From Paludibacteraceae bacterium (GTDB taxonomy: Bacteria; Bacteroidota; Bacteroidia; Bacteroidales; Paludibacteraceae), in NCBI GenBank assembly GCA_017551675.1, contig JAFZLC010000046.1, forward strand, positions 1-37,319: 37,319 nt of DNA, read 5' to 3'. Of the stretch, positions 399 to 36,554 are shown in pieces (the stretch's first letter is position 1; every line of letters begins with the position of its first letter). A program made the translations under genes and the position numbers. The notes below the pieces were generated by a model. The model was not told the DNA's origin and ran no database searches. It worked only from the letters and a program-made list of their open reading frames with translations.

Positions 399-1274
399 TT
401 ATCTCTTGCCATTCAGAATATCTTCCACTATCTTTCTGTCAATCTCAAGCATCTCTGCAATTTCCGATGCGGATTTCCCTTTCTCTTTTTTAGCAAGCAC
501 TTGTCTGGTAAGGAGTGCGAGTTCACCTTCAGCCCTTCCTTCAGCCCTTCCTTTTTCGACACCAGATTTGAATGTGCCAGAAAGTAGTGTGTGCTCTGTT
601 GCTATTATATCATAGAAACGGTCGTATGCGGCGAGTTGAGCCTCGGTATATGCTCCATGCTCCACTATTTTGAGGGCTTTCCTTATTTCAGGAGACTCCA
701 TCAGTTCTTGTGGCACCTCCGTGGTGCTTTCGTTCACTTCTGTAAGGAATCGTAGCCACAAGTCCATCATCTTCTTTTCCCGTTTGTTTTGCGGGGCAAA
801 TTTTGTCAGTTCTATGAATATGAGTTCGAAACCCTCAATCACGTTGTTGGGTTTGCCCTTTTCTGCAACCTGAAACTGATGGTAGAACTTTGAACCGTCG
901 AATGCGTTGTCGTTTACAAGATTCAGGGAATAGATTGGAGCAAGTTTGTTGTAGTCAAATCCCTTTGTAGCCTGACTCACATAGGCCTTGGAGGCGTTGA
1001 AAAGCACTCGTTGTTTAAACTCCGATGTCCAATACATCTGCATTTCCACAATAAATTGACGTCCATTGTTGTCTTTGCAACGCACGTCCACTATGGTGTT
1101 CTTTCTTAGAGGCGTATCCGGAAGCATCTCCGGTTGCAGATACTCCACCTCCTTTATTTCCTCACCCTTTTTGAACGGTATCAAAGCATTAAGAAAGCTT
1201 ATCACCAAATCTTTATGTCTTCCAAATACGTTCTTAAAGGTCAAATCAAAACGTGGATCAAGATATTTTCCCAT
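399..1274 (-). CDS. Rpn family PD-(D/E)XK nuclease/putative transposase
   Basis: The product has about 291 residues and belongs to the PDDEXK_2 (Rpn/transposase_31-like) family. The start at 1274 gives MGKYLDPRFDLTFKNVFG, the usual N-terminus of these proteins; an earlier in-frame ATG at 1322 adds 16 atypical residues. The catalytic core is visible as TIVDVRCKD followed by QFIVEMQM, matching the D...(D/E)xK/Q pattern with Q in the last position as is common here. The C-terminus has the family's GRAEGRAEGE linker followed by a charged helix-turn-helix-like tail (SASEIAEMLEIDRKIVEDIL). E. coli relatives nick or cut DNA and promote RecA-independent recombination. It stands alone and faces the Rhs remnant across a terminator. 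Family confident; activity inferred. Confidence 0.88.
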   Translation of the reverse strand: MGKYLDPRFDLTFKNVFGRHKDLVISFLNALIPFKKGEEIKEVEYLQPEMLPDTPLRKNTIVDVRCKDNNGRQFIVEMQMYWTSEFKQRVLFNASKAYVSQATKGFDYNKLAPIYSLNLVNDNAFDGSKFYHQFQVAEKGKPNNVIEGFELIFIELTKFAPQNKREKKMMDLWLRFLTEVNESTTEVPQELMESPEIRKALKIVEHGAYTEAQLAAYDRFYDIIATEHTLLSGTFKSGVEKGRAEGRAEGELALLTRQVLAKKEKGKSASEIAEMLEIDRKIVEDILNGKR

Positions 1275-1460
1275 ATTTTTATACTTTTTGCCAAAAATAA
1301 AAAGATTTTGTTTTAGCAGCAAATTAAACTGACAAAAACAATGATCTGCTTATGTCAACAAGAAAATTCACTGCAAGATATCACCTACATGCAGTATGGT
1401 GAGTTGCTCGTCATCCGTCCTCAGGAATATGTAAGATTTGTATCAGAGTTCACCTATATT

Positions 1461-2338: not shown

Positions 2339-2656
2339 TTATTCTGCAGATTCTGATGATTGTTCAGATCCTTTGGATTCAATTCTTTGGAAATCACCCG
2401 CTTTGGTAAAGGAGAGTTCTACGTTGTTTGGTTTGTTCAATTTGACACGATAACCATAACTTTTCTTCTCGATTCGACGGATATATTGTTCTGGATAATT
2501 CTTTTCGATGTACTGATTTAACTTCTTAGGAAGAAGATTAAGCACACTTTCTGGTAATCTCTGTGACTTTGAGATCTTGATTTCAAACCAGTTTCCTTTT
2601 CTGTCGAATTCAATCTCAGTGTTCTCTTCCAATCGGATGTTATAGTCTCCATCCAC
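2339..2656 (-). CDS. PepSY-like domain protein, downstream piece of a split frame
   Basis: 105 codons are open from a GTG at 2656, but the reading frame continues upstream without interruption to a TAA at 2690-2692. It contains EIEFDRKGNWFEIKI, LPKKLNQYIEKNYPEQYIRRIEKK and VELSFTKAGDF, typical of the PepSY-like/DUF2874 (BLIP-like) fold seen in Bacteroidota lipoproteins. It has no signal peptide of its own, and its first beta-strand (QDVSIISIVNDV) lies before the GTG. It is therefore better read as the second half of the 2690-3205 protein, detached by a nonsense codon. It may not be made, or may be made only by re-initiation or readthrough. It ends 11 bp before the SUMF1-fold gene. Confidence 0.6.
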   Translation of the reverse strand: MDGDYNIRLEENTEIEFDRKGNWFEIKISKSQRLPESVLNLLPKKLNQYIEKNYPEQYIRRIEKKSYGYRVKLNKPNNVELSFTKAGDFQRIESKGSEQSSESAE

Positions 2657-2689
2657 ATCATTGACAATAGAGATGATGCTGACGTCTTG

Positions 2690-3205
2690 TTAAGGTTTGT
2701 TGACAAATGCTTTCGCTCTGGAAGTCAGTCTCTTACCTGATGGATCATCACTGATAATCTCTCCCTCTTGGGTGAAATTCAATTCTATGTCGTCTGGCTT
2801 ATGGAATGTGATGCGATAGATGAAATCTTTTCTTCCAAGGGATTTCTTCTCAATCTTGTGAATGGTTTTGTCTGAACAGTTCTCATCTATGTATTGATTG
2901 ATACTGCTTGGAAGTGTACCCATTAGAGTGGCGGGTACCTCATTCCATCTTAGATTGACTTGCTCCCATTGTCCTGTGTTGGTGAAATCGATTTCTGTTC
3001 CATCTTCCAACATGACTACATAGTCCATCTGAATCTTTGTCTCTGTAATCTCTTTAATCTCCTTTTGAGGGAAATGGGTGGCGAGAAATTCTTCTGCATC
3101 TTTTGGTAAAGCGCTTTTGTTTCTGCCATTGCCACTTTCACAAGAGAAAAGAGTGGTTATCATTGCTAATGCAGCAAATATGATAAATGATGTGTTTTTC
3201 TTCAT
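2690..3205 (-). CDS. PepSY-like lipoprotein, upstream piece of a split frame
   Basis: 171 residues. The N-terminus is a lipoprotein signal with lipobox LFSC (Cys22), so the product should be anchored in the envelope. Two half-units follow: LPKDAEEFLATHFPQKEIKEI...DGTEIDFTNTGQWEQV, and LPSSINQYIDENCSDKTIHKIEKKS...IELNFTQEGEI. This is one full PepSY-like/DUF2874 domain. A third half-unit begins at LTSRAKAFVNKP and is cut by TAA at 2690-2692. The matching continuation QDVSIISIVNDVDGDYN lies directly downstream in the same frame. The uninterrupted protein would have about 288 residues and two complete domains. The ligand is unknown; the family resembles beta-lactamase-inhibitor-like folds. Confidence 0.75.
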   Translation of the reverse strand: MKKNTSFIIFAALAMITTLFSCESGNGRNKSALPKDAEEFLATHFPQKEIKEITETKIQMDYVVMLEDGTEIDFTNTGQWEQVNLRWNEVPATLMGTLPSSINQYIDENCSDKTIHKIEKKSLGRKDFIYRITFHKPDDIELNFTQEGEIISDDPSGKRLTSRAKAFVNKP

Positions 3206-4277: not shown

Positions 4278-6365
4278 TTACTCTTTTATGGGTTTTTCAA
4301 AATTAATTCGTACTCCAGCATAGACCATCGCTCCATGTGTCGGTCCCCATACCATCGTAGCGTCAAAGTTAGGACTTTCTGGGTGATTGGCATCTACAAT
4401 CGGATTTTTCTGTTTGAAGTTGGTGAGATTTTCTCCTCCTGCATATACGGAGAAATGACGAAACTCTCGTGTGATTTGAAGATTTAATTGCGGGAATGCT
4501 TTGTAATCTGGGTTCCATGACCAACGATTACCCTCTTTGTCTCTGTATTCTGTGTTGAGCGTCTCTTGCTCGTTAAGCAAATAGGGCGTTGGCATTTTTC
4601 CAGGACCATTCACTTGCAGGGTGAGGTCTACTTTCCATAAATCTAATTGATCATTCCATGATGCTGTGAGCAACGCTTTGTAGCGAGAGGTTAGGAATCG
4701 CTCTTGCAATTGTCCTTTTTCTCTTCCCCCATCTTCAGTCTTATGACATCCTACTGATTGCTTTACGTCTTGCCACCTGAATGCGGCAAGAAGAGAGACT
4801 TGCTTGATGGTGCGTGAGACATCGATTTGTGCGGTGTGAGAATAGGATTTTGCTCCATCTGGTAGTGAATAAATCTGAAGGGTTCTTGCTTCCGACATGT
4901 CCAACACCATCTGATGTAGAAAGTTTGTGTAGTAATAATCGATATTGATGGGAAGTTCTTTCTCTCTGATTTTAGGAGAAAAAGAGACCGACCCTCCTAC
5001 ATTCCATGCCTCTTCCTGTTGCGGTGTGTCGATGATAATGGCACGATTGCTGGCTAAAGTTGTTGTGTTCTCTGCCAACACATGAGGAGAACGATACCCC
5101 TTTCCTGCAGATGCTCGAAACGAGAGTTGACTGATGGGGGCATATTTCAGATGTATGCGTGGTGTGACAAATCCTCCATAGAGATTGCTATGGTCATATC
5201 TGATACCTGCCATCGCAGATAACTTCTCTTTTAGTTTGTATGTGTATTGTGCATATACACCAGGGGTTGTCTCCCTTTGAAAATCAATCATGTCGTAGGT
5301 GTATGGGAGTTCAGCGTTCCATCTGTCATGGTTCAAACTGGCTCCAACGGATAGATTGTGAGAGGGGGTTAGGTCTTCCTCAAACAAGAATTGTGCGTAT
5401 GCATTGGATTGTTTGAATTTGTGCTCTTTCTCTCCGAAGTGATATTCTGCATTGTGAATGCTACCAGTGAGGATAAGGGCTACACTTCCGTTCTTCTCTC
5501 TATTGGTAAACAAGGCGTTTTTCCAAAAGAAGTCTGCTCTGTCCGTTTCGAGATTAATGCCATAGGTTGAATCATTGTCATGATTGTGGTGATGTGTGCT
5601 TCCACTTTCACGTTTGTCGTGGATTCCTCGTATGCTTAATTGTGATATGAAACGATTGGTGATCCATCCCCAACGATGTTGTGCATTGATCTGTCGTTGC
5701 TTGGGTGCATCCATAAACTGGTCGTTGTTTTTGTCATGCTCCATCTGTGAACTCTCTATGTGGAGTAATAGATTGGTGCTTAGCTTGTCGTTGACGTGAC
5801 TTGTTCCATATACATCCCCTTCCCATTTCAGATGGGAGTTGAGGTGTAGATTTCCCCAAACACCTTCTAATCCTTGTGGCTTCCAATAGTTGACATTGAT
5901 TTGTCCGGTAATACTCTCGAATCCGTTTTTCACACTAGAGGCTCCTTTGGAGATCTGAATGGACTGAATCCAAAAACCTGGTACGAAATCAAGGGAGAAG
6001 GGAATGACGGCACCTCTGAAGTTGGGCACGTTTTCTGTAAGCATTTGTACATAGATGCCACTTAATCCAAGTAGCTTGATTTGTCGTGTCCCTGTCGCCG
6101 CATCGTTGTAGTTGGCATCGACGGAAGGGTTCGTGGTGAAACTCTCACCAAGATTGCAGCAGGCTGCTCGAAGCAACTCTCCACGATTGATGGTTTCTGT
6201 GTTGGTAATCAGGTAGGTGGATTTCAAATTTCGTTTGGGGGTTGCTGTGACATCTACTGTATTCAACTCAACACTCGTCAGACTGTCAGCGTCTGCTGCA
6301 TGAGTGGAGAGACCAACCGAAGCAATCAACCACTGGATGAATAATACACATGCTACCTTCCTCAT
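4278..6365 (-). CDS. TonB-dependent outer-membrane receptor, probable metal uptake
   Basis: About 695 residues from the start at 6365 (MRKVACVLFIQWLIASVGLSTHA, signal peptide). The longer frame from 6416 would begin upstream of the promoter. A TonB-box-like region (VELNTVDVTATPKRN) leads into the plug (LGESFTTNPSVDANYNDAATG, IKLLGLSGIYVQMLTENVP, IQISKGASSVKNGFESITGQINV) and then a 22-strand-type barrel that ends in aromatic strands (VYAGVRINF). A histidine-rich loop, STHHHNHDND, lies near residue 256 in the barrel. No SusC-type N-terminal extension or SusD partner is present. With the HMA protein 5 bp downstream this looks like a metal-importing pair; copper or zinc are reasonable guesses. 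Confidence 0.9.
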   Translation of the reverse strand: MRKVACVLFIQWLIASVGLSTHAADADSLTSVELNTVDVTATPKRNLKSTYLITNTETINRGELLRAACCNLGESFTTNPSVDANYNDAATGTRQIKLLGLSGIYVQMLTENVPNFRGAVIPFSLDFVPGFWIQSIQISKGASSVKNGFESITGQINVNYWKPQGLEGVWGNLHLNSHLKWEGDVYGTSHVNDKLSTNLLLHIESSQMEHDKNNDQFMDAPKQRQINAQHRWGWITNRFISQLSIRGIHDKRESGSTHHHNHDNDSTYGINLETDRADFFWKNALFTNREKNGSVALILTGSIHNAEYHFGEKEHKFKQSNAYAQFLFEEDLTPSHNLSVGASLNHDRWNAELPYTYDMIDFQRETTPGVYAQYTYKLKEKLSAMAGIRYDHSNLYGGFVTPRIHLKYAPISQLSFRASAGKGYRSPHVLAENTTTLASNRAIIIDTPQQEEAWNVGGSVSFSPKIREKELPINIDYYYTNFLHQMVLDMSEARTLQIYSLPDGAKSYSHTAQIDVSRTIKQVSLLAAFRWQDVKQSVGCHKTEDGGREKGQLQERFLTSRYKALLTASWNDQLDLWKVDLTLQVNGPGKMPTPYLLNEQETLNTEYRDKEGNRWSWNPDYKAFPQLNLQITREFRHFSVYAGGENLTNFKQKNPIVDANHPESPNFDATMVWGPTHGAMVYAGVRINFEKPIKE

Positions 6366-6385
6366 TTTTGTCTTTTTTATTGTCG

Positions 6386-6416
6386 CAAAGATATTGCATT
6401 GGCAACAATTATACAA
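6386..6416 (-). promoter_or_regulatory. Promoter of the TonB receptor-HMA operon
   Basis: The minus strand carries TTG (6416-6414), 20 bp, then TATCTTTG (6393-6386), which is the Bacteroidota -33/-7 pattern. The ATG at 6365 lies 20 bp further on. Confidence 0.6.
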
Positions 6417-6499: not shown

Positions 6500-9454
6500 T
6501 TAGTCTTCCGTTGTGTTATTGGCTGTGTTCCAATCCATGAATCCATCTTCTAAATTACGAACTGGATAGACCTCCCATGTCTTGTCTTTGTGAACGATGA
6601 TGGCAACGCCAGACATGAAGTTGATCCATGTTTTGTTGCTGACAAAGTCGATGCCCTTGTTGCTCACCCATTCTACAAGTGGAACAGTTAGGTAATCGTG
6701 ACTGGTAAACCAAGAGAATTTTTTACCAACAGTCATTTCACATAATGTATTGATGATCTCTGTTGCTTTTGTTCCTACACTGGAAGCGTTGTTGTCGTAG
6801 TATTTACAAACGTTGCTCATGCCGCTGGTGCTTCCGACAATGTAGCTGCCATCAATCACCGCTACAGGATTGTATACGTCGTTTATACTGGTTAGAGTAT
6901 CTTTTCTTCCCATGGCAATGTAGTAGCTGGTCTCTTTACAACGTGTAACGGATGTGGAAGCGTAGAATGTTCTGTCGCCTGCTATGCCCCCAACATAATG
7001 CTCTCCCACTTGTTTTGCCCATAATTTACCATTTGCTGTTAATCCACCTGTTGAAGAATAATCTTTTCCTCTCTTGGAGTGTCTAACAAGATAGATGATT
7101 CTGTCGGTTGGCTTTACAGATGCATAGATGTCTGGACCATAATTCCAATTTTGAGTAGTGAAATTATAGGTGTTAAAATTCGCCTTTTGATATGTTTTGT
7201 TGCAGTTGGAAATCTCCTCCACTGAGTCCAAATTCAACTGTACGTTTTGCAGTTGTTGTGACAATGTTTGATTAACTGTTGAAATGGAATCCAATCGGGT
7301 GGCTAATGCATTAACCAAAAGACTCAACTCGTTGAGCTGATTTTGTAATGCACCGCTGCAACCTGTGCTCAGAATGTCTGCTATTGAGTCACGTGTAAGG
7401 TATTTCGCATCGTTGTTGAAAGCACTGACGTTAGTTGGAACGGTAGGCAACTGACTTGCAGTAACATAGTTTTTGTCATTCTGCAATTCAGACACTTTGG
7501 TAGGAACATCAACCGTAGGTACATCGTTTAATGTGATGTAGTTCTTATCGTTTTGCAATTCAGATACCTTCGTAGGCACCTCAACGGTAGGAACCTCGCT
7601 TAAAGTGATGTATTGAGCATCGTTGACCAACTCACTTACCTTGGTAGGGTTGGCAGGGACTTGCTCGATAGTGATGTACTTTTTATCGTTGGTAAATGCG
7701 CTAATCTTTGTTGGCAGAGAGTCGCGTGTAATGTATTTAGCATCATTAGTGAATGCACTAACCTTTGTAGGAACAGTAGGCAACTGACTTACTGTTGCAT
7801 AGTTCTTATCGTTCTGCAATTCTGACACTTTTGTAGGAACCGTTACGGTAGGCACCTCGCTTAGTGTGATGTAGTTTTTATCATTTTGTAATTCAGATAC
7901 CTTCGTAGGTACTTCAACAGTAGGTACATCGCTTAAAGTGATGTATTGTGCATCGTTGACCAACTCACTCACCTTGGTAGGGTTGGCAGGGACTTGCTCG
8001 ATAGTGATGTATTTCTTATCGTTGGTAAATGCGCTGATCTTTGTTGGTAGAGAGTCGCGTGTGATGTATTTTGCATCATTAGTGAATGCACTAACCTTTG
8101 TTGGAACGGTAGGCAACTGACTTACTGTTGCATAGTTCTTATCGTTCTGCAATTCAGACACTTTTGTAGGAACCGTCACGGTAGGCACCTCGCTTAGTGT
8201 GATGTAGTTTTTATCATTTTGTAATTCAGATACCTTCGTAGGCACCTCGCTTAAAGTGATGTATTGAGCATCGTTGACCAACTCACTCACCTTGGTAGGG
8301 TTGGCAGGGACTTGCTCGATGGTGATGTATTTCTTATCATTGGTAAATGCGCTAATCTTTGTTGGCAGAGAGTCGCGTGTAATGTATTTTGCATCATTAG
8401 TGAATGCACTAACCTTTGTCGGAACGGTAGGCAACTGACTTACAGTGGCGTAGTTCTTGTCGTTTTGCAATTCAGATACTTTAGTAGGCACTTCAACCGT
8501 AGGTACATCGTTTAAGGTGATGTAGTTAGCATCGTTGGTCAGTTCACTTACCTTAGTAGGTACCTCAACTGTAGGTACTTCACTTAAAGTGATGTATTTT
8601 TTGTCGTTTTCAAAGTCACTAAGTTTGGTAGGGAGAGAGTCGCGTGTGATGTATTTTGCATCGTTGTTGAAAGCACTGACGTTAGTAGGTACGGTAGGCA
8701 ACTGACTCTCCGTAACGTAGTTTTTATCGTTTTGTAGTTCAGACACTTTAGTAGGCACTTCAACCGTAGGTACATCCTTTAAAGTAATGTATTGAGCATC
8801 ATTGGTCAATTCACTCACTTTAGTTGGAACTGTTACAGAAGGTACCTCGTTTAGAGTGATATAGTTTGCATCATTGGTCAACTCGCTAACTTTGGTAGGC
8901 ACTGCTACGGTAGGGAGGTCGTTGATTGTGATGAATTGTTTGTCGTTTTCCAATTCACTTGTTTTGGTTGGAATAGATGGAGCATTCTGAATCTCATCAT
9001 ATTGATAGCTAGGCTTTTCGTCAGACACCCAAGAAGGAAGAGCATTTGGGGATACGCGTTCTGCATATAAAGCGTAAGGCACACTCATTAGTTGAGAGGT
9101 GAGTGAGATCGCATGATCGCTTCCTTGGTTGTATTTCACCTTGCATTGTAGGTAAAAAGGACCGTCCGACCAATCGATGTCGGAGAGTGAGTAACTGCTT
9201 TGCCTTTGGTCGTCACCTATGGCGAAGGTCATCAGACCATTTTCGTTTGTCTTTTCCGTGCGAGACTCGGAGTAAACCACAGCACCGTTCTCAGACCCTT
9301 GTAGAATGGCGATTTCCACATCGACAGAGGTGTTGTTGAGCAGTTGACCTAAATTGTCTCTGATGACAGCTTGATAACTAATTGTTTGAGGTGTTTTTGC
9401 GAATGCGTTTGCAAAGAAAATTGCTGAAAGCAAAATGAAAAAAATCTTTTTCAT
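6500..9454 (-). CDS. Surface fibre-like tandem-repeat protein with C-terminal histidine phosphatase domain
   Basis: 984 residues. The order is: signal peptide (MKKIFFILLSAIFFANAFA); an N-terminal beta domain (about 20-135; ISYQAVIRDNLGQLL...SQLMSVPYALYAE) common in exported Bacteroidota proteins; 24 repeats of the form PTKVSELxNDxxYIT (about 165-690) like those of phage tail fibres; a coiled coil (about 700-745; NQLNELSLLVNALATRLDSI); and a C-terminal domain (about 785-980) of the histidine phosphatase superfamily. The phosphatase motifs are YLVRHSKRG (His near 791), GLTANGKLWAKQVGEHY, FYASTSVTRCKET and FTSHD (second His near 918), so the catalytic set appears complete. No T9SS tail is visible here, but the gene 9 bp upstream encodes one. 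Substrate unknown; a stalked surface phosphatase is inferred. Confidence 0.85.
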   Translation of the reverse strand: MKKIFFILLSAIFFANAFAKTPQTISYQAVIRDNLGQLLNNTSVDVEIAILQGSENGAVVYSESRTEKTNENGLMTFAIGDDQRQSSYSLSDIDWSDGPFYLQCKVKYNQGSDHAISLTSQLMSVPYALYAERVSPNALPSWVSDEKPSYQYDEIQNAPSIPTKTSELENDKQFITINDLPTVAVPTKVSELTNDANYITLNEVPSVTVPTKVSELTNDAQYITLKDVPTVEVPTKVSELQNDKNYVTESQLPTVPTNVSAFNNDAKYITRDSLPTKLSDFENDKKYITLSEVPTVEVPTKVSELTNDANYITLNDVPTVEVPTKVSELQNDKNYATVSQLPTVPTKVSAFTNDAKYITRDSLPTKISAFTNDKKYITIEQVPANPTKVSELVNDAQYITLSEVPTKVSELQNDKNYITLSEVPTVTVPTKVSELQNDKNYATVSQLPTVPTKVSAFTNDAKYITRDSLPTKISAFTNDKKYITIEQVPANPTKVSELVNDAQYITLSDVPTVEVPTKVSELQNDKNYITLSEVPTVTVPTKVSELQNDKNYATVSQLPTVPTKVSAFTNDAKYITRDSLPTKISAFTNDKKYITIEQVPANPTKVSELVNDAQYITLSEVPTVEVPTKVSELQNDKNYITLNDVPTVDVPTKVSELQNDKNYVTASQLPTVPTNVSAFNNDAKYLTRDSIADILSTGCSGALQNQLNELSLLVNALATRLDSISTVNQTLSQQLQNVQLNLDSVEEISNCNKTYQKANFNTYNFTTQNWNYGPDIYASVKPTDRIIYLVRHSKRGKDYSSTGGLTANGKLWAKQVGEHYVGGIAGDRTFYASTSVTRCKETSYYIAMGRKDTLTSINDVYNPVAVIDGSYIVGSTSGMSNVCKYYDNNASSVGTKATEIINTLCEMTVGKKFSWFTSHDYLTVPLVEWVSNKGIDFVSNKTWINFMSGVAIIVHKDKTWEVYPVRNLEDGFMDWNTANNTTED
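7392..8962 (-). repeat. 24-unit tandem repeat with a 333/318-bp higher-order period
   Basis: Units share S(E/A)(L/F)xND(K/A)xY(I/A/V)T with linkers such as PTVEVPTKV. Units 8-12, 13-17 and 18-22 repeat as blocks of five. The same block start lies at 7781, 8114 and 8432, so one block is 333 bp and the next 318 bp; the shorter one lacks a 15-bp TVEVP linker. The copies are nearly identical in DNA, which points to recent unequal exchange or slippage. Confidence 0.9.
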
Positions 9455-9463
9455 ACGTGTATA

Positions 9464-9958
9464 TTATCCTTTAATGATTTTGATAGTGATGAATTTCTTT
9501 TGACGTTTGTCGGTATATATTTTTAACAAATAAGTGCCGATTGGTTGATTACTAAGAGATAACTTAGAGTTGTTCTTTAGTTTCCCTTGATAGATAAGTT
9601 CACCCTCCACATTGGTCATCACGAAGGAGTACCAGTTTTCATCATTTTCGATGAGGACGGAAAACTCGTCGGTGGTAGGGTTGGGGAATGCCTTAATGCT
9701 CATCAGAAGGTTGTTGACCTCCTTTTTGTTGACCTCTTCTTGCTGATAAACGTCAGGTTGTTGCACACCCGCGTTAATTGATGTTTTGTCGGTTGAGGCA
9801 TTCATGTAATCTACCTGTCCGACTGAAAATGAGAGACTTCCTTCGTCCGTTTTTGTGCTTCCTCCACTTGTGACAGTGGCTGACTGAGAGAATCCATCAG
9901 AGAAGGAAAAAAGAAAAATCGAACAAATGAAAATTCCTTTCTTGAATAAAGAATCCAT
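9464..9958 (-). CDS. Small exported protein with T9SS type A sorting domain
   Basis: 164 residues. Signal peptide about 1-25 (ending DGFSQ). A short conserved segment (SATVTSGGS...GSLSFSVGQVDY...INAGVQQPD) is typical of small Bacteroidota T9SS cargo. A C-terminal T9SS type A domain follows from about residue 88: IKAFPNPTTDEFSVLIEN, VEGELIYQGKL, LSNQPIGTYLLKIYT, KKFITIKIIKG. The C-terminal domain should direct it through the type IX machinery to the cell surface. It is the first gene of a two-gene unit, 9 bp before the repeat-phosphatase gene, so the two probably act together, perhaps as anchor and fibre. No TAnnTTTG box was found upstream. Confidence 0.88.
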   Translation of the reverse strand: MDSLFKKGIFICSIFLFSFSDGFSQSATVTSGGSTKTDEGSLSFSVGQVDYMNASTDKTSINAGVQQPDVYQQEEVNKKEVNNLLMSIKAFPNPTTDEFSVLIENDENWYSFVMTNVEGELIYQGKLKNNSKLSLSNQPIGTYLLKIYTDKRQKKFITIKIIKG

Positions 9959-35171: not shown

Positions 35172-36554
35172 CTATTCCTCAGTGTGCATCACTCTCCACC
35201 CAATAGGTATTTTGTCCTCTTCAAACAATTCTATAAGGGATTCGGGACAGATGAAGGTGCCAGTCGGAGCAACATTGGAGAGCCAACCATCCGTAAATGA
35301 AGGATTAAAACAATCTAACATAGTTTGATGATACCTATACCAGCTATCGAAGCAAACCTTTATGGAGCAAAGGTTGATACAATCTTTGAACATTCTTGTA
35401 TAACAATATTCGGAGAACTCCGTGGCAGGCAATTCGGGGGCTTCTTTCAGACTGATGCAACTATCGAACATCTCTGTGTAACAATCTGCGTACAACTCCG
35501 TGGCGGGTAGCTCGGGCGCTAGTTCCAAGCTAGTACAACCCTTGAACATTCTTTTATAGCAACGATAAGATATGTTTGTACAATATAGTGAGGGCGCTTT
35601 GACAAGACTGGTGCAACCTGCGAACATCTCTGCACAGCTTTCTCCGAGCATTGATTCGGCGTACAAATCTGGTACCTCTGTCAAGCTCGTGCAATTGGCG
35701 AACATCCGCCAGCAGGACCCTTCTCCAAACCGTGTGACTGGTAGTGCAGGTGCTTGGGTGAGACTAGTGCAGCCTGCGAACATGTGCGAACAACTTCCCC
35801 AGTCCATTTCTTTGGCGTACAGATCTGGTACATCGGTCAGACTTGTGCAGTTCGAGAACATACTACGATAGCAAGCATCTGCCAGTTTGGTGGCGGGTAG
35901 TTTCGGCGCTTGGGTGAGGTTGGTGCAACCTGCGAACATGGCGTAGTAGCATCCACTTTTCATTGAATCGGCAGGTAGTTCAGGTGCCTGAATCAGGTTG
36001 GTGCAACTGGCGAACATTGCCCAATAGCAACCTATAGATAGTTTCGTGGCGGGTAGTTCAGGCGCTTTGGTCAGGTTGGTGCATTTCCAAAACATATCGA
36101 GGTAACACTCCACGTCCAGTTGGGTGGCAGACAATCGGGGCGCCTTGACAAGGCTAGTGCATTCCGCGAATAGTCTATTAAAACACCATTTGCAAGGAAT
36201 AACCTTACTATCCCCTTTGTTGTCTATCAGACTCATCACGCTTCCGCTGGCGGCGATGGAACCAGTCATGGTGAATGAGGTGTATATATATCTACCATGG
36301 GAGAACCCACTGGGATTATTCCCTTTCAACAAAGCCATGTCCCCTTTCTTTGCCAATATAACTACCGTGTTGGTGTCGAGCGTCATCCATCTCTTCCCCT
36401 TGTCCAAAGAGTATTGAACATTAGGGTTGTTGCTCCCTACGTTTATGATACCGAACGCAGAACTATCCGCCTCTGCCGTGAAGGTGAGGTAGTTGGCGGC
36501 ATGCAGGGCGCTGGTGACGCACAAAAAGAGCAAGATGAGGAGTTTCTTTGTCAT
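35172..36554 (-). CDS. BspA-like surface protein with 11 leucine-rich-type repeats
   Basis: 460 residues. Signal peptide MTKKLLILLFLCVTSALHA. An N-terminal beta domain (about 20-125; YLTFTAEADSSAFGIINVGSNN... SGSVMSLID) precedes 11 tandem repeats of about 24 residues with consensus CYxxMFxxCTSLxxAPxLPAT (about 125-395), of the BspA/DUF285 type. The C-terminal cap is NVAPTGTFICPESLIELF, then EDKIPIGWRV. Cysteines are conserved in every repeat. Such proteins are displayed on the surface and bind host or food ligands. No T9SS tail or lipobox is seen. A second gene with the same cap lies just upstream on the same strand. Confidence 0.85.
   Translation of the reverse strand: MTKKLLILLFLCVTSALHAANYLTFTAEADSSAFGIINVGSNNPNVQYSLDKGKRWMTLDTNTVVILAKKGDMALLKGNNPSGFSHGRYIYTSFTMTGSIAASGSVMSLIDNKGDSKVIPCKWCFNRLFAECTSLVKAPRLSATQLDVECYLDMFWKCTNLTKAPELPATKLSIGCYWAMFASCTNLIQAPELPADSMKSGCYYAMFAGCTNLTQAPKLPATKLADACYRSMFSNCTSLTDVPDLYAKEMDWGSCSHMFAGCTSLTQAPALPVTRFGEGSCWRMFANCTSLTEVPDLYAESMLGESCAEMFAGCTSLVKAPSLYCTNISYRCYKRMFKGCTSLELAPELPATELYADCYTEMFDSCISLKEAPELPATEFSEYCYTRMFKDCINLCSIKVCFDSWYRYHQTMLDCFNPSFTDGWLSNVAPTGTFICPESLIELFEEDKIPIGWRVMHTEE

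Follow-up and report, generated by a model that had tools for sequence, protein, structure and literature searches.

A candidate phosphatase-tipped fibre related to Bdellovibrio mosaic adhesive trimers is encoded beside a small protein with a type IX sorting tail in Paludibacteraceae

We analyzed contig JAFZLC010000046.1 of a Paludibacteraceae bacterium (GCA_017551675.1; positions 1 to 37,319 of the forward strand; contig C46 in a 3.3-Mb assembly), and refer to this whole stretch of 37,319 nt as the window. Two adjacent genes on its minus strand are our subject: a fibre gene whose product ends in a putative histidine phosphatase head, and, 9 bp upstream of it, a gene for a small partner protein that carries a sorting tail of the type IX secretion system (T9SS). 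The N-terminal domain (N-domain) of the fibre is related to that of the mosaic adhesive trimer (MAT) fibres of Bdellovibrio. The two open reading frames (ORFs) and the parts of the fibre are as follows.

9464..9958, minus strand: partner, 164 amino acids (aa); a start that looks like a signal peptide (by eye), then about 65 residues of mature protein and, at residues 91-157, a type A sorting tail of the T9SS
6500..9454, minus strand: fibre, 984 aa; signal-peptide-like start (by eye), MAT-type N-domain, 24-unit stalk, coiled coil, predicted histidine phosphatase head; no T9SS tail
9035..9397, minus strand: N-domain of the fibre, residues 20-140 (about 120 aa); match to NF053851, homologous by sequence to the Bdellovibrio MAT N-domain
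7385..8962, minus strand: stalk of 24 phage-tail-fibre-like repeats, residues 165-690 (ends approximate); from the repeat count, tblastn and PHROG
7145..7384, minus strand: coiled-coil linker, residues 691-770 (approximate); from the sequence by eye, with weak coiled-coil matches (E 0.02 and E 0.13)
6503..7144, minus strand: predicted histidine phosphatase head, residues 771-984; R-H of RHSKR, a later R and H-D of TSHD invariant in aligned heads

A preliminary description of this locus, made by reading the letters, had given the same coordinates, a 24-unit stalk and the motifs RHSKR and TSHD in the head, and the ORFs and a motif count bear it out. The stalk contains exactly 24 S[EAD][LF]xNDxx[YF] units, whose positions range from residue 166 to residue 677 at spacings of 19, 22 or 24 residues. 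It resembles phage tail fibres, both by tblastn (E 7e-23 to the tail fiber protein of Synechococcus phage S-B68, one of four phage records matched) and by matches in PHROG. The N-domain matches NCBIfam NF053851 (Bdello_MAT_N) with E 1.6e-11 and 44.3 bits, under the curated cut-off of 60, and the same family is matched by 20 of 20 N-domains in our alignment A5 (E up to 0.001). A structure model of the domain is beta-rich (predicted local distance difference test, pLDDT, 74), as is the conserved N-domain of about 130 aa in the MAT fibres. These sequence matches establish the window-type N-domain as a homolog of the Bdellovibrio MAT N-domain. Because the curated cut-off is not reached, we do not term the fibre a MAT member proper and prefer to see it as a T9SS-coupled variant of the MAT type in Bacteroidota. 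The fibre may trimerise through its coiled coil; the model is of a single chain.

The head was assigned from its fold and its conserved residues. A structure model of the head (pLDDT 91) has the fold of the histidine phosphatase superfamily, and all 50 structural matches listed for it are proteins that we take, from their titles and from recall, to be histidine phosphatases. In the model, R40 ends strand 34-40 and is followed by H41, R87 stands at the start of helix 86-98, and H168 comes after strand 162-167, a topology that suggests that the catalytic residues meet in one pocket. The R, H, R three places on, later R and H-D are invariant, first in 13 and then in 17 of 17 aligned heads; the third residue of the RHG motif is S in the fibre heads. 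His_Phos_1 of Pfam is matched by 9 of 13 heads at E up to 1 (best 2.1e-5). Since Pfam His_Phos does not match the head of the window, that head is assigned through its relatives, profile-to-PDB matches and the structure model. The head has dN/dS values of 0.08-0.16 in six pairs among the window and loci L018, L019 and L020 and is therefore under constraint. In fold and in the placing of these residues along the secondary structure, the model passes the structural check that the preliminary description had named. Modelled fold and residues together support the head as a histidine phosphatase, as the preliminary description had proposed from its two motifs, and it is probably an active one.

Known members of the superfamily are distant. 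RosC, prostatic acid phosphatase, SixA, PhoE, AppA phytase and the MINPP of B. thetaiotaomicron share about 11-16% identity with the window-type head, which differs from the superfamily in being borne on a fibre and in having RHS in place of RHG. Gut-bacterial MINPP reportedly acts outside the cell. The MINPP-type histidine phosphatase of gut bacteria, as described in PMC3969271, is a precedent for such enzymes in the gut. The named relatives of the head come from metagenome-assembled genomes (MAGs) of Paludibacteraceae and other Bacteroidales, mostly from ruminant or horse guts according to record titles, and from two Fibrobacter succinogenes MAGs (16 loci). In the Fibrobacter MAGs (L045, 7566-8657; L046, 7566-8654) the head sits on a lipoprotein-like N-terminus (by eye) with a short Ser/Pro-rich linker and no fibre, and BLAST finds no partner in the fetched stretch. 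These heads belong to the same subfamily, with the same invariant residues at 26-28% identity, and their first motif reads RHA and RHG. Another ORF without fibre or stalk (L030, 7310-8236) encodes a domain distantly related to the head; its genome (G320) holds a head-bearing fibre as well.

Turning to the partner, its sorting tail scores 39.1 bits against TIGR04183 (cut-off 23) and 39.1 bits against Pfam PF18962 (cut-off 27). It is the sole T9SS tail on the window contig (E up to 0.01), and a profile search of the fibre protein and the contig gives no tail for the fibre, in agreement with the preliminary description. The same distribution of tails holds among relatives: TIGR04183 is matched by 19 of 19 partners of alignment A6 (E up to 0.001) and a tail model that we built by 79 of 84 partners, whereas none of 95 fibre ORFs, 19 of them cut at the 3' end, has a tail at E up to 0.1. 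The mature partner stretch of about 65 residues reads GGS...GSLSFSVGQVDY...AGVQQP.... The genome encodes SprA (TIGR04189; 2375.7 bits, cut-off 200), which is matched in 0 of 14 control genomes, and hence, judged on SprA as the component searched, a T9SS translocon. It also has 71 T9SS tails over the cut-off, two of them only when taken together with neighbours in frame; the tail search matches 3 of the 14 controls, one over the cut-off. The partner is thus like other type A cargo (TIGR04183) in bearing the tail, in a genome with SprA and many other tailed proteins, but differs in that its mature part is very small and its gene is paired with that of a fibre lacking the tail.

We next asked how widely the two genes pair. 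In ORFs that hold both the N-domain and the head, the partner lies upstream in 7 of 7. Of 13 head-bearing genomes of the family, 12 give matches to the N-domain as well as to the partner; G324 stands apart in giving no N-domain match. In several of these genomes the head contig begins inside the stalk, and a second contig ends with a 5' half and its partner. A search with the N-domain only (A2) matches 78 of 358 family genomes, and the tail-less module of the partner (A3), searched against those 78, matches 59 at E up to 1. Taking the 64 partner matches up to E 2.3e-4, we find 58 that are followed on their own strand by an N-domain no more than 2 kb away. This count uses 64 of the 89 listed partner matches and all 120 N-domain matches; at least three of the 25 weaker partner matches dropped (G221:C63, G003:C70 and G111:C36) are located shortly before an N-domain. 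Counted from the other side, every one of the 21 N-domains up to E 1e-40 is paired, and the narrow tail-less module pairs 58 of the 119 with E up to 1e-6.

An iterated model of the full-length partner pairs 84 of 95 N-domain ORFs, always with the partner upstream, at a median gap of 6 bp and within 100 bp in 78 of them. The 95 are those of the window, L035, L042 and the fetched stretches of family genomes; of 107 N-domain places with E up to 1e-17, 16 are left out, mostly contig-end pieces or second copies from genomes that are already represented, and the 13 weaker places were not targeted in their own right. Paired N-domains are as low as 28% identical to that of the window. The 84 pairs include two T9SS-tailed proteins of about 640 aa, at 131 and 251 bp, that may be chance neighbours. 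Among the 11 N-domain ORFs for which this model finds no partner, three are short N-domain-alone ORFs (L136, L140 and L141), three lie behind another N-domain ORF or a fibre end (L089, L092 and L137), two are close to a contig end (L091 and L115), one sits beside a 421-aa ORF that escaped the model (L133), and two have partner-like ORFs near but not directly upstream (L113 and L123). We also observed that in L131-L135 the upstream gene is longer (about 400-420 aa), with an N-terminus that resembles the partner and a long extra part added; it is this gene that was overlooked in L133.

The pairing extends beyond the family. In a phylum-wide sample, a search with A5, a wider alignment of N-domains (E up to 1e-6), matches 45 of 198 genomes and 30 of 103 genera. 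Besides the window's own locus, the model finds a partner at 23 of 29 loci, which are generally the best match per genome, and none at the other six (L160, L168, L169, L170, L173 and L175), of which L169 has a similar-looking gene by eye and L168 is near a contig start. The genomes in these surveys are related and their loci are not independent events. The pair clearly passes the neighbour survey that the preliminary description had proposed as a check on its two-gene interpretation.

The C-terminal tips are diverse. When clustered by single linkage on their last 150 aa (BLAST, E 1e-5), the 71 complete fibres give 28 tip clusters, which include at least one broken fibre, L035, with its N-terminal part and its head as separate ORFs. 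Pfam domains recognized among 20 scanned tips are GH16, Lcl_C, S74, Collar, BACON and InlB-like, and the histidine phosphatase is one tip type among many. In having a phage-fibre-like stalk with exchangeable C-terminal tips, the fibres agree with the MAT plan. In the fibres with a GH16 tip (by Pfam in L140 and L141; the C-terminus of L136 is similar), an ORF of 164-174 aa that consists of the N-domain alone lies upstream of the partner and the fibre.

Comparison with the Bdellovibrio fibres (NF053851; PMC10769870) shows both likeness and difference. As far as these are described in PMC10769870, the two kinds share a homologous beta-rich N-domain right behind the signal peptide, a phage-tail-fibre-like stalk and exchangeable C-terminal tips that include S74 and lectin-like ones. 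However, the window N-domain stays below the curated cut-off of NF053851, the present fibres belong to another phylum and are encoded beside a T9SS-sorted partner, and they have enzyme tips (phosphatase and GH16), of which there is none among the MAT tips named in the accessible text of that paper. The preliminary description had stated that no described system has this layout. This does not hold, because the N-domain and the plan of a fibre with a variable tip match the MAT fibres as PMC10769870 presents them; of its interpretation of the two genes as a display device, the enzyme and the conserved pairing stand and the unprecedented layout falls. In the literature searched, the phrase "mosaic adhesive trimer" occurs in only three papers, by title all on Bdellovibrio, and no title among the hits listed points to a pair of a T9SS partner and a fibre, in a search that left most subscription papers and bioRxiv itself outside.

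Based on these data, we propose that the pair is one cassette of a Bacteroidota mosaic surface-fibre system with a T9SS-sorted anchor and a phosphatase tip, a reading that we hold to be somewhat better than even. Both proteins would be exported via Sec. The usual fate of T9SS type A cargo is fixing to the cell surface (PMC9950754, in its accessible part), and because of this known behaviour we expect the T9SS to deliver the partner outside the cell, where the tail would be removed and the remaining stretch of about 65 residues fixed to the surface. This stretch would hold the fibre N-domain; we infer such binding because the pairing is conserved and the mature partner is short. The phage-fibre stalk and the coiled coil, probably trimeric, would then bear the tip outwards, and the tip, most likely an active phosphomonoesterase, would act on organic phosphates in the herbivore gut and release their phosphate. 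A reasonable guess at the substrate is those contained in plant food, for example phytate or sugar phosphates. For passage of the fibre across the outer membrane, our preferred guess is co-export with the partner.

An alternative role for the partner is that of an export adaptor, which would dock on the N-domain in the periplasm and pull the fibre through the T9SS translocon, the fibre then being held otherwise or released. In its favour, the tail-less fibre gene is nearly always beside a tailed gene, and the shortness of the mature partner speaks against a separate function for it. The present data do not discriminate between export and anchoring; we judge the adaptor role unlikely, given the surface fixation that is usual for type A cargo. 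A second alternative concerns the head, which could be catalytically inactive, or a mere binding domain that acts as an adhesin for ligands bearing phosphate, in the way of the lectin-like folds at MAT tips. The MAT tips are described as adhesive and one of them holds a buried phosphate (PMC10769870, in the text accessible), and several of the Pfam-recognized tips found here are lectin-like or structural. However, all 17 heads, among them those of the two fibre-less Fibrobacter lipoprotein-like proteins, keep the catalytic-type residues unchanged, and GH16 enzyme tips occur on the same N-domain, so that we give a binding head slightly less credit than the export adaptor.

Third, the two genes could be mere operon neighbours, an unrelated T9SS cargo beside an adhesin anchored elsewhere. 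With 71 T9SS tails in the genome, chance neighbours can occur, but the tail-less partner module, used as the query, recovered the 58 of 64 pairs, with N-domains that reach down to the 28% identity given above, and the pairing is phylum-wide; we consider mere proximity very improbable. Lastly, that the fibre is a prophage tail-fibre remnant, as the likeness of its stalk might suggest, is hardly credible in view of its signal-peptide-like start, MAT-type N-domain, T9SS partner and purifying selection, and of an ordinary chromosomal setting (dcw cluster, TonB receptor) in which a scan of 17 of the window's 32 ORFs of at least 150 aa gave no phage structural gene.

Beyond the cassette with its anchor and phosphatase tip, a bolder proposal can be made tentatively, and we think it rather less likely than not to be right: the pair may represent a phylum-wide two-gene display platform, in which the T9SS-delivered peptide of about 65 residues is a dedicated receptor, perhaps one that completes the beta-sandwich of the fibre N-domain, and carries the MAT fibre, which lacks a tail of its own, either across the outer membrane or onto it. 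Since the tips would be freely swapped and some are enzymes, the cell would on this proposal work on its surroundings at arm's length. The surface element that the MAT N-domain binds awaits identification (PMC10769870, as far as accessible), and a T9SS-delivered receptor, if true, would suggest what kind of element that is in Bdellovibrio. More generally, a T9SS-sorted partner that tracks a homologous domain across the phylum makes the holding or export of the fibre in Bacteroidota testable by one gene deletion. Enzymes such as the phosphatase and GH16 are placed at tips that Bdellovibrio, as described, uses for adhesion, and many loosely recognizable fibre-like and small T9SS proteins may become candidates for one display system.

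The genes that adjoin the pair encode a TonB receptor, a PepSY protein, an FGE-type protein and an M20 peptidase, followed by the dcw cell-division cluster. The gene of the TonB-dependent receptor (4278-6416, minus strand), whose product has a His-rich stretch, lies downstream of the fibre gene in the same orientation, as it also does in L019 and L020. In L027, whose head is only 41% identical, genes of PepSY and FGE type are downstream as well. Toward the ends of the window, a 460-aa ORF (35172-36554, minus strand) is without a Pfam match at E 0.001, and a gene resembling PD-(D/E)XK family transposases (399-1322, minus strand) lies close to the edge. Lastly, the PepSY-like gene of the window (2342-3205, minus strand) is split into two ORFs of 105 and 171 aa, and it may be interrupted, because the close relative L019 has a single ORF of 288 aa (1822-2685) in its place.

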